Assembly (NCBI GenBank): GCA_002733205.1 | Contig: NVUW01000002.1 | Coordinates: 434,001-498,000 of the forward strand | Length of the DNA stretch: 64,000 bases | Source: Thalassobium sp. | GTDB taxonomy: Bacteria; Pseudomonadota; Gammaproteobacteria; Pseudomonadales; Oceanobacteraceae | Direction of reading: 5' to 3' | Part shown: one piece after another, positions 32,285 to 34,628 of the stretch | Numbering within the stretch: position 1 is the stretch's first letter | How the letters are laid out: each line of letters starts with the position of its first letter | Made by a program: the position numbers and the translations under genes | The notes under the pieces: generated by a model | The model's input: only the letters and a program-made list of their open reading frames with translations | Told to the model about the DNA's origin: nothing | The model's database searches: none

Positions 32285-32755
32285 TCAAAAGCGCATCGAC
32301 AATTCCAGATTGTATCCTTGATTGTTGGTTTGGCTGACGCTGTAGCGTATTTCGCCGGCTTGCGGCTCACCCTGGTAGATATCCCAGGCGGTCATCGCCA
32401 CGAATTTCATCAGATCGGCGGAAGAAGAATGGGCACTGACGCTGTCATCGTCGACCAGATCCCAATGGCTGGCTTCCAGCCAATCACCACTGAAGGCGGC
32501 TTCTTTATCTTCGTCAGCCCAGGTCATGGAAAAGGGTGCGATCAGGGCAAAGCAGGCAGCACAGGGTTTGATCCAGCGCTGGCGGCGTAAAACGTTGCGC
32601 AGCGTGCGCTCATCAATAAAACCGAGGCTGATTAACGCTTGCCCCAGCTGGCAGGGATTCTGCGCCTGATAGCTCAGCGCCTGCTGCAGTTGTTGTTCTG
32701 TTATTTCCTGCCGCTGTAACAGCAGTTGTCCCAGGCGGTGGGGGAATTCATTCAT
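32285..32755 (-). CDS. Small protein with GspE-N/MshEN-like N-terminal domain
   Basis: I do not recognise a named family for the whole 156-residue protein. Residues about 5-55 (LGQLLLQRQEITEQQLQQAL, then GQALISLGFIDERTLRNVL) match the helical repeat of the type II secretion ATPase N domain (GspE-N/MshEN), which in some proteins binds cyclic di-GMP. A hydrophobic stretch of about 15 residues (CAACFALIAPFSMTWA, about 68-83) could be a membrane helix or cryptic signal. The rest ends YNLELSMRF, resembling a beta strand with a terminal Phe. An ATPase domain is absent, so this is not a secretion ATPase. Alone between tRNA-Thr and the DUF3392 gene. Confidence 0.6.
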   Translation of the reverse strand: MNEFPHRLGQLLLQRQEITEQQLQQALSYQAQNPCQLGQALISLGFIDERTLRNVLRRQRWIKPCAACFALIAPFSMTWADEDKEAAFSGDWLEASHWDLVDDDSVSAHSSSADLMKFVAMTAWDIYQGEPQAGEIRYSVSQTNNQGYNLELSMRF

Positions 32756-32949: not shown

Positions 32950-33270
32950 ATGACCCTGATTCAAACTCTCGCCAGCCACGTGCGACCGCATACCGATGAT
33001 ATCGCTCTGGCGCTGATCGCGACCTTACTGGTAATTTTCGGAGACACCATTAATGATCTGGTGCGCAAGCTGGTGCGGCCGCAACCGATGTGGATACGGG
33101 TAGGCGTATTTATTGCGTTATGTACGTTTGGGTATGGTGCGTTGTCTGTGTGGCTGACACCGGTGCTCGACAGTTATCTGCGTACATTGTCGGCGGGAAT
33201 GTTTCTGAGTGTGGTGATCGGATCTTTTGTTGCCGTGGGGTTTATGGCGGAGCGTTATCACAGCCGTTAG
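32950..33270 (+). CDS. DUF3392 family small inner-membrane protein
   Basis: This 106-residue protein has three or so hydrophobic helices (about 18-34, 49-70 and 78-98) with IALALIATLLVIFGDTIND at the N-terminal end, as in the DUF3392 family found in marine gammaproteobacteria. Role unknown. ATG at 32950 has CGGAGAA 8-14 bases upstream; the longer open frame from 32893 lacks a site. Divergent from the MshEN-like gene across 194 bp in which I see no other feature. Confidence 0.7.
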   Translation: MTLIQTLASHVRPHTDDIALALIATLLVIFGDTINDLVRKLVRPQPMWIRVGVFIALCTFGYGALSVWLTPVLDSYLRTLSAGMFLSVVIGSFVAVGFMAERYHSR

Positions 33271-33365
33271 GTACAGACAGTCGGAAGGCGTTATGTGTGG
33301 CTGAATAAAAACATAGTGGGGAAACAATGTGGGAGTATGGGTGGTCTGAAACTTTATAACGGCCC

Positions 33366-33404
33366 AAAAAAATCGGGCGGTCAGGACATCCTGTCCTGAC
33401 CGCC
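33366..33404 (-). terminator. Terminator of the CsrB/RsmZ-like RNA
   Basis: A perfect 13-bp stem (33376-33388 with 33392-33404) has GGA as its 3-base loop in the RNA and is followed by a run of seven Us (A-tract at 33366-33372). Even the terminator loop displays the GGA motif. Confidence 0.92.
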
Positions 33405-33576
33405 ACAGCACCCTAGCGCCATCCTGGCGTCCTAGACTTCGTTCATCCTTGCCGCTATCCGTTGCGGTTGCTCATCCCTGACCAGCGATCCATCGCCGAC
33501 AACTCTATCCGTGATTGCAGTCCTTAGCGGTATCTTCCTGATCACTGCCATCCCGGCAGTGCGTCCGTCCTTGTGG
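33366..33576 (-). ncRNA. CsrB/RsmZ-type regulatory RNA (CsrA/RsmA antagonist)
   Basis: The minus strand of this ORF-free gap reads as a classic CsrA-titrating RNA. From about 33576 down to the terminator there are 14 GGA motifs in about 210 nt, including AAGGATG, CAGGGATG, CCAGGATGG and ACAGGATG, close to the CAGGAUG repeat of E. coli CsrB. Many lie in hairpin loops: CACTGCC(GGGAT)GGCAGTG at 33543-33561, GCGA(TGGA)TCGC at 33485-33496, CCGC(AACGGATA)GCGG at 33452-33467 and CGCC(AGGAT)GGCG at 33417-33429. A weak -10, TATCTT (minus, 33582-33587), places the start near 33575; TATAGA (33620-33625) would start it near 33613. Such RNAs sequester CsrA and are switched on by GacA/UvrY. Confidence 0.85.
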
Positions 33577-33665
33577 AATTAAAGATAGCAGAATCGCTCT
33601 TCTGAGATAGCCCAGGTTTTCTATACTGAGGCTGTTGTGTTTGTATCATGATTTATAAATATTAT

Positions 33666-33683
33666 ATAAATCAATCACTTACG
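33666..33683 (-). promoter_or_regulatory. Possible GacA/UvrY upstream site
   Basis: On the minus strand CGTAAG-TGATTG-ATTTAT resembles the GacA box TGTAAG-N6-CTTACA: 5 of 6 in the first half, 2 of 6 in the second, with the central AT. It lies about 100 bp before the predicted RNA start within a very AT-rich stretch (33645-33680). Confidence 0.3.
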
Positions 33684-33728
33684 TTTTTTCTGTGCGGATC
33701 TTTCCTTCGGGATCAGGGTGTTTTACCT

Positions 33729-33765
33729 AGATATCGCACTACCTTGTGAGATATCTCGCACAAGG
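33729..33765. promoter_or_regulatory. Operator-like repeats before the gene at 33813
   Basis: AGATATCGCAC (33729-33739) recurs as AGATATCTCGCAC (33749-33761). The second copy lies inside CCTTGTG...CACAAGG (33742-33765), whose core GAGATATCTC is itself a 10-bp palindrome. Two turns of near-identical sequence 20 bp apart look like a dimeric repressor or activator site. The regulator is unknown. Confidence 0.45.
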
Positions 33766-33812
33766 CTGCAGGCGCTTGTCTGCCGGTCTTCTCTCAGGAG
33801 TCATGAGTTTTT

Positions 33813-34628
33813 ATGAGTAATGCTGTCAATCTGCCGTCAGAGCTTGTGTATTTGCCCTTGGGAGAAGAGGCGATTCCGTTGTTAAAGCGTGGATTTATCC
33901 CTTTATTACCGGCAACGGCCAGCGGTTTGCCCTGGTTATTGCCGCCAGCGGCACAGCCGGCGTTGGTCAGAGTATCGGCGGACGACTATCAGTCGCACAT
34001 GCTGTCTGAATATGGACGTCTGCCAGCGAACCTGCGCGATTTGATCAGTCAGGAGGATTTTCTGCGTCAGGCGGAGAGTAAACGCGTGGATATCGAAGCC
34101 GCGCTGGTGGCACAGCGTAAAGCCCGCGCAGAAGAGGATGCCGGACGGCCACAAGACTGGTTATTGCAGCGCTTTTTCAGTAATCCTTATTGTGCGCTTG
34201 CCTGGCGCCACGGAGCAGGTTTTGGCGGTATCTGGCTGGGCGTTGATCCGCAGCAGTGGCCGGACACCGCGTTCCACCCGGTAAGTTATCAGTCGCAACG
34301 TGCTCCACGGCTCCCGGACAGCCTGTACTGCGATCCGCCGACGCACGCTCCGTTGGCGGAGCAGCGTTTAATCTGTGCCGCGGCGGCGGTGGATAAGTCG
34401 GTTCAGGTTGGTCATCAGCGGCAGTGGCTGTTGCGACTGCCGCCGAAAGCTTTGCGTGTGGTGTTGCTGGGCGCGCAGGTGTCACGCCGCTTTGAACAAA
34501 ACCTGCTGCAATTCTGGCAGCAGGATTTCCGCTATCAGCGTATTCCGCTGTCTCAGATGACGTTTAACAACCGCGATCTGAGCTGGGAGTTTCAGCTACG
34601 GCCGTTGACCAGAGCAGAAAAGCCCTGA
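33813..34628 (+). CDS. Uncharacterised protein, possibly DUF2971-like
   Basis: The 271-residue soluble protein is not confidently recognised. Several stretches follow the DUF2971 pattern: CALAWRHGAGFGGIWLGVD (about 127-145) like 'lMWaHYa..h.G..igfd', then HPVSYQSQRAPRLPD, and finally ALRVVLLGAQVSRRFEQNL like the 'l..iilG' element. This is remote and inferred. No signal peptide or membrane helix. AGGAG lies about 12 bases before the ATG at 33813. It ends inside trmH: the two convergent genes overlap by 37 bp. The repeat-rich upstream region suggests specific regulation. Confidence 0.5.
   Translation: MSNAVNLPSELVYLPLGEEAIPLLKRGFIPLLPATASGLPWLLPPAAQPALVRVSADDYQSHMLSEYGRLPANLRDLISQEDFLRQAESKRVDIEAALVAQRKARAEEDAGRPQDWLLQRFFSNPYCALAWRHGAGFGGIWLGVDPQQWPDTAFHPVSYQSQRAPRLPDSLYCDPPTHAPLAEQRLICAAAAVDKSVQVGHQRQWLLRLPPKALRVVLLGAQVSRRFEQNLLQFWQQDFRYQRIPLSQMTFNNRDLSWEFQLRPLTRAEKP

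Follow-up and report, generated by a model that had tools for sequence, protein, structure and literature searches.

Our results indicate that the minus strand of the window (the whole 64,000-nucleotide stretch of DNA analyzed here) very probably encodes a GacA-activated small RNA (sRNA) that would sequester CsrA and act as the CsrB/RsmZ counterpart of the family. A preliminary description had proposed a CsrB/RsmZ-type RNA at this place, and at the sequence level the proposal is supported by GGA hairpins, a terminator, copies in all 34 family genomes examined, a GacA/UvrY-type box and the presence of csrA. Our reading builds on what we observed: the sequence itself, its conservation, the promoter plan, a covarying terminator, csrA in this genome and gacA/uvrY in its relatives. 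From these we infer transcription, activation by GacA, CsrA binding and a regulatory effect. In such a scheme, phosphorylated GacA/UvrY would bind an 18-bp repeat about 180 bp upstream and switch on an extended -10 promoter, and the gap would be transcribed into an untranslated RNA of about 209 nt. The short hairpins and single-stranded links of this RNA would present a GGA about every 13 nt; CsrA dimers binding to them would be withdrawn from mRNA leaders, and CsrA-repressed genes would be released. In Thalassolituus and its relatives, this sRNA may be the RNA arm of the Gac/Csr circuit.

The predicted RNA spans 33366..33574 on the minus strand (about 209 nt), its 5' end being placed from the -10 element and its 3' end from the T run. 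It contains 14 GGA motifs, the first and the last lying between 33389 and 33570, and the earlier count of 14 in about 210 nt of the minus strand is therefore accurate. The interval first given for the RNA, 33366-33620, holds at the 3' end and not at the 5' boundary, as the extended -10 element places the start probably near 33574; the control region reaches 33762, beyond that interval. Fourteen is the highest number of GGA in any 210-nt stretch of the window on both strands, the runners-up having 10 (plus strand) and 9 (minus strand) and the mean being 2.3. Counting overlapping matches, A(N)GGA occurs 16 times in the sRNA, compared with a mean of 3.9 and a maximum of 12 in shuffles, and 13 of the 14 GGA, each counted once, have an A at -1 or -2.

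We considered whether this could be a chance or compositional GGA cluster without function, or the remnant of a protein-coding sequence. Dinucleotide-preserving shuffles of the sRNA contain 7.9 GGA on average and reach at least 14 in 3 of 2000 cases (0.15%). Moreover, the gap, previously described as ORF-free, is only nearly so: a mechanical 97-aa ORF with a GTG start (33118-33411, minus strand) runs into it. However, this sole overlapping ORF covers just the 3' end of the sRNA, and the genus alignment contains single-base gaps, on which grounds we rejected a protein-coding origin. A chance cluster was rejected on the shuffle counts, the bias of conservation towards GGA and the family-wide copies with their fixed promoter plan. 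With the covarying terminator also standing against it, we assign a negligible probability to a non-functional cluster or coding remnant.

Local folding allows 11 of the 14 GGA of the window sRNA to sit in a hairpin loop, and the five GGA hairpins listed in the preliminary description are all present. Besides the terminator (33376-33404), these are CGCCAGGATGGCG (33417..33429), CCGCAACGGATAGCGG (33452..33467), GCGATGGATCGC (33485..33496) and CACTGCCGGGATGGCAGTG (33543..33561), all on the minus strand and with GGA in the loop. The GGA is retained in 8 of 8 aligned genus copies of the first, second and fourth of these hairpins, and is in register in 6 of 8 for GCGATGGATCGC. Folding thus bore out the local GGA hairpins, while the whole molecule was only modestly more stable than its shuffles (z -1.73; equally stable shuffles, 8 of 200). 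Over the 34 family RNAs, the mean unpaired probability was 0.67 for G within GGA versus 0.27 for other G. Placement in a local loop is possible for 377 of their 599 GGA, as opposed to 34-50% for five other trinucleotides, which is a weak test when taken alone.

The 599 GGA of the family RNAs have a median spacing of 13 nt, and an A is found at -1 or -2 in 526 of them. Averaged over the 34 loci, there are 6.5 GGA per 100 nt inside the RNA, compared with 0.8 in the 300 nt upstream and 0.7 downstream. In alignment A2, which comprises eight of the nine genus copies (the longer L022, from the same genus, was omitted), 10 of the 14 GGA are retained in all eight copies. In the part preceding the 3' module, invariant columns make up 31 of 36 within GGA and 61 of 124 elsewhere (Fisher p 5e-5); for the whole RNA the figures are 36 of 42 versus 100 of 171 (p 0.001). 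Within the genus the internal hairpins show almost no covariation and, being mostly invariant in A2, are neither supported nor contradicted. One internal hairpin pair is changed on both sides in two rows and broken in two.

The terminator was found as claimed at 33404-33376 on the minus strand, with a 13-bp stem, GGA in the loop and seven Us, the corresponding seven Ts running to 33366 (tail CGATTTTTTT). No other terminator-like site was seen in 33250-33850, for which shuffles average 0.6 such sites. Two-sided changes occur in 7 of the 13 consensus pairs of its stem, each in at least one of 27 relatives; the underlying alignment A1 holds 27 of the 29 rows known at that stage, L003 and L029 being omitted.

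Directly before the terminator (33413-33404 in the window) lies GGGTGCTG, which is invariant in 27 aligned family copies and has no evident role in CsrA binding. This element bears on the possibility that the GGA-rich sRNA mainly base-pairs with mRNAs, with CsrA binding being secondary; McaS, a dual-function RNA, is a precedent for base pairing plus CsrA binding. Such an RNA would accommodate the conservation across genera of the AGGGTGCTG box before the terminator, which CsrA binding leaves unexplained. Its seed should be conserved, yet between genera sequence is kept at little besides the two ends of the RNA, as judged from the blastn pieces. The length of the array differs between genera at a GGA spacing that stays near 13 nt, and we consider a mainly base-pairing sRNA very unlikely. 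A CsrA-sequestering RNA remains our preferred reading.

Conservation in relatives had been named as a check, and we found a copy in 34 of 34 family genomes examined, a count that refers to the family members within the searched genome set, as further family species may exist. These copies share a common plan of 18-bp inverted repeat, extended -10 element, GGA array and conserved terminator module. A blastn search with 33340-33700 gave matches in 30 of 55 genomes, namely 29 family members with real copies and G042; in the five family genomes missed by blastn, the copy was found with a covariance model built on the 3' module and then by direct reading. The match in G042 (L028) was rejected as a copy, since it consists of a 21-bp linker match, and L028 is excluded from all counts. 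This 21-bp stretch of the promoter linker occurs exactly three times within about 3.3 kb of G042, which belongs to another family (including L028:1501-1521).

Model R1, run on 194 genomes of the order, returned seven matches, six of them in the family; as the filters were strict, some family members may be among the 167 unlisted genomes that gave no match. The seventh match, in G173 (L078), was rejected as a long inverted repeat following a 356-codon coding stretch; GGA do not exceed 6 per 150 nt, and no box was seen there within six mismatches. A laxer run on 15 chosen genomes recovered true copies in 5 of 5 family members and, among 10 non-family genomes, four weak matches, none with array and box. 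Because R1 gives true distant orthologues (genus g4) just 16-25 bits, absence outside the family is weak evidence.

Upstream of the sRNA we found an 18-bp inverted repeat, TGTGCGAGATATCTCACA (33745..33762, minus strand), which constitutes a GacA/UvrY-type box centered about 180 bp before the inferred start. By eye, a partial second copy of the box, AGTGCGATATCT, follows 4 bp after it (33729..33740, minus strand). The conserved extended -10 element TGCTATCTT (33582..33590, minus strand) sets the predicted start near 33574. No -35 hexamer matched for the sRNA, and a two-hexamer sigma-70 scan of 33250-33850 gave no site. The linker between box and -10 element contains an A/T-rich inverted repeat (33649..33673, minus strand; by eye), a putative IHF-like site; a similar core resembling TTGATTTATA can be recognized by eye in relatives.

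The box was seen in 34 of 34 family loci, and in 31 it lies within two mismatches of one of two reference forms. The boxes of L082, L083 and L077 have 3-5 mismatches, and their assignment rests mainly on position. From the box start to the extended -10 element the distance is 171-175 bp in 33 of the 34 loci and 186 bp in L022. The reference forms, the loose -10 and box patterns and the search windows are our own choice, and the transcript ends are deduced. Of eight further family genomes, seven have a single match to a strict box pattern, and this match is at the sRNA promoter; in the eighth, G019, the sRNA box begins with C.

In the 4.15-Mb genome of the window organism, the box pattern has two exact matches and its reversed control none. 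One match is at the sRNA promoter, and the second is in the interval separating fliD from a SnoaL-like gene (PF07366), at L042:3976-3993 (G000:C12:329975-329992). The fliD/SnoaL-like box is also found at the matching place in L093 (G002:C1:2871609-2871626), and is thus conserved in two genus species. Downstream of it there are at most 5 GGA per 200 nt on either side, and it is possible that this box marks a direct, non-sRNA target of GacA. Within the same genome, a second copy of the RNA was rejected, as R1, with its stricter filters, finds one place. In the complete relative G002, a looser box pattern fits 10 places (reversed control, 2), and a dense array (10 GGA per 150 nt) follows the orthologous promoter only, the other nine having at most 6. 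Further Csr RNAs preceded by no such box would escape this kind of search, and there may be more Csr RNAs per genome.

The identity of the activator deserves attention. Another regulator, binding a TGTGMGA-type repeat, could drive a CsrA sponge in place of GacA/UvrY, all the more so as the usual box form here, TGTGCGATATATCTCACA, departs from TGTAAG-N6-CTTACA, and as uvrY/gacA was not found in the window's assembly. Nevertheless, TGTAAG forms of the box occupy the equivalent position in several genera (L027, L080, L082), and that of L027, TGTAAGACATGTCTTACA, matches the published GacA box form (PMC8523701, in its accessible part). The box of E. coli csrB itself carries TGTGAG, according to the accessible part of PMC4682653; there, the UvrY repeat TGTGAGAGATCTCTTACA has its center at -183/-182, and a partial repeat comes 5 bp after it.

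Furthermore, GacA/UvrY (NF007018) is over the cut-off in 45 of 55 genomes, including all 33 other family genomes. In the window's assembly, which is 87% complete, no protein exceeds the cut-off (best score, 138.6 bits versus 280). The 3.6 kb around uvrY of G002 also have no match there, and although an empty answer alone proves nothing, this absence of the whole region from an 87%-complete assembly makes an assembly gap the likelier cause of the missing uvrY/gacA. Taken together, a regulator other than GacA/UvrY appears unlikely to us, and we retain GacA as the predicted activator of the sRNA.

The proposed ligand is encoded in the same genome: csrA/rsmA had been named as a prerequisite, and three PF02599 matches exceed the cut-off. 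They lie at G000:C2:223294-223449, C5:437732-437887 and C5:337606-337725, and one of them is divergent (36 bits). In each of eight further genus members searched, a single CsrA match was found, versus three here. Overall, csrA is present in 55 of 55 genomes searched.

The locus had been called unusual, and it indeed has a DUF3392 gene on one side and, on the other, a gene that belongs to no known family. The genes on both sides are on the opposite strand, so the sRNA gene is free-standing, with its intrinsic terminator. It is convergent to the DUF3392 gene, which was matched in 26 of 34 loci. On the other side, the gene at 33813-34628 (plus strand) is divergent from the sRNA promoter region; its 271-aa product matched no Pfam or NCBIfam family and was matched upstream in 18 of 34 loci. 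TrmH, upstream of the sRNA, was matched in 29 of 34 loci, and 25 of 34 contain a tRNA-Thr. Of the three proteins DUF3392, 33813 product and TrmH, one or more were matched in every locus except L083 (33 of 34); loci here comprise about 1.5 kb on each side of the search match, and the absence of a neighbor may be a cut-off effect. Nearby, 32285-32755 (minus strand) encodes a short protein that carries a cyclic di-GMP-binding domain of the MshEN type at its N-terminus and otherwise matches no known family; this protein is near the sRNA in many relatives.

The number of GGA per orthologous copy ranges from 7 to 44 across the family genomes. Copies of genus g7 have 7-8 GGA in about 145 nt, whereas those of genus g3 (six genomes) have 33-44 in 437-550 nt. 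The complete copy with the fewest GGA is L030 (146 nt, 7 GGA); L029 is truncated by a contig end and has at least 130 nt and 7 GGA. This growth of the array reflects, at least in part, tandem duplication: positions 108-272 of the L018 RNA hold 3.1 copies of a 53-bp unit (92% matches) that contains two GGA hairpins. In each of the six g3 genomes, as in most of the family, csrA is single-copy, and the genomes with extra CsrA matches (G000, G016, G019, G023) do not belong to g3.

These data lead us to a model in which a single orthologous sponge keeps a near-rigid promoter while its CsrA-docking capacity changes in evolution between 7-8 GGA (about 145 nt) and 44 GGA (about 550 nt), partly through tandem duplication and with no parallel change in csrA copies; we regard the arguments for and against this model as evenly balanced. 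If it is true, sponge size would serve to tune the Csr switch, and its largest forms would carry twice the GGA of E. coli CsrB, which has 22 according to the accessible part of PMC7652899. For the Csr RNAs of Pseudoalteromonas, the accessible part of PMC11882849 gives 25, 21 and 9. The figure of 44 is the largest only among the Csr RNAs compared here, and the Marinomonas CsrC interval (655 nt) is longer than any family copy. Natural orthologues whose GGA number spans 7 to 44 behind a shared, conserved promoter plan would offer a direct test of how sponge capacity affects CsrA regulation.

The suggested comparison with the Rfam Csr models came out negative, as no Csr family reaches its curated cut-off for the window RNA. 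At curated thresholds Rfam reports one tRNA only in the window, and tRNAs only in 20 homologous loci. The best score of the sRNA is with PrrB_RsmZ (RF00166; 18.2 bits, E 0.061), which does not reach the gathering cut-off of 44. RsmY (RF00195) and CsrC (RF00084) gave nothing in 33200-33800 at E<=10 (one lower-scoring overlap from the same clan was left out), and CsrB (RF00018; cut-off, 71 bits) has no match in the window genome. A scan of eight homologous loci at E<=1 gave matches to the CsrB model in four, all below 71 bits: L018 (55.7 bits, E 1e-12), L021 (35.1, E 2e-6), L017 (33.3, E 6e-6) and L022 (18.5, E 0.2). These scores may be raised by the repetition of GGA units, most of all in L018, where the match overlaps the tandem repeats. 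L009 matches CsrC at 16.4 bits (E 0.42; cut-off, 61), and L016, L024 and L080 have no Csr match at E<=1. Judged by its anatomy, the sRNA would be a functional counterpart of CsrB/RsmZ outside any recognized Rfam family, and the covariance model combined with the promoter signature provides a route to annotation where Rfam is silent.

Our literature search, which left supplements and most subscription papers outside, found nothing pairing Thalassolituus or Oleispira with CsrA, and none of the 15 papers listed from a broader set of 476 pairs these genera with CsrB, RsmZ or GacA. Two papers combine CsrA, Oceanospirillales and sRNA, and the one paper on DUF3392 concerns, judging from its title, HD-GYP proteins of Vibrio cholerae. 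The main text of a machine-learning prediction (PMC5568370) names neither Thalassolituus nor Oceanospirill-. An earlier prediction of this sRNA may exist outside the literature searched.

Among known systems, Pseudomonas RsmZ/PrrB provides the best Csr match of the window sRNA and shares its GGA hairpins and terminator, whereas the window sRNA is larger, has more GGA and scores below the 44-bit cut-off. The RsmZ locus lies beside fdxA, and the window sRNA does not. CsrR1 and CsrR2 of Alcanivorax dieselolei, compared here by description, are likewise predicted CsrA-binding sRNAs of a marine alkane degrader, and CsrR2 is conserved within its genus; in contrast to the window sRNA, they are located at other loci (hfq 5'UTR; beside hpt and ferredoxin genes) and have fewer GGA (PMC9788540, accessible part). 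CsrB and CsrC of Marinomonas mediterranea, which belongs to the same broad group of marine Gammaproteobacteria as the window organism, resemble our sRNA, again by description, in their GacA box, many ANGGA and terminator, and RNA-seq showed both to be lost in regulator mutants. They differ in being two RNAs at other loci, with read-count intervals of 456 and 655 nt (PMC8523701, accessible part).

With E. coli CsrB, the window sRNA shares a dense array of GGA hairpins, a terminator, and an 18-bp UvrY-type repeat that is centered about 180 bp upstream and followed by a partial one (PMC4682653, accessible part). It differs in its locus and in having 14 GGA as opposed to 22 (PMC7652899, accessible part), and the RF00018 model reaches its 71-bit cut-off in none of the 20 homologous loci scanned and has no match in the window genome. 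Even so, copies in other genera of the family do match that model below the cut-off, a further likeness between the two RNAs.
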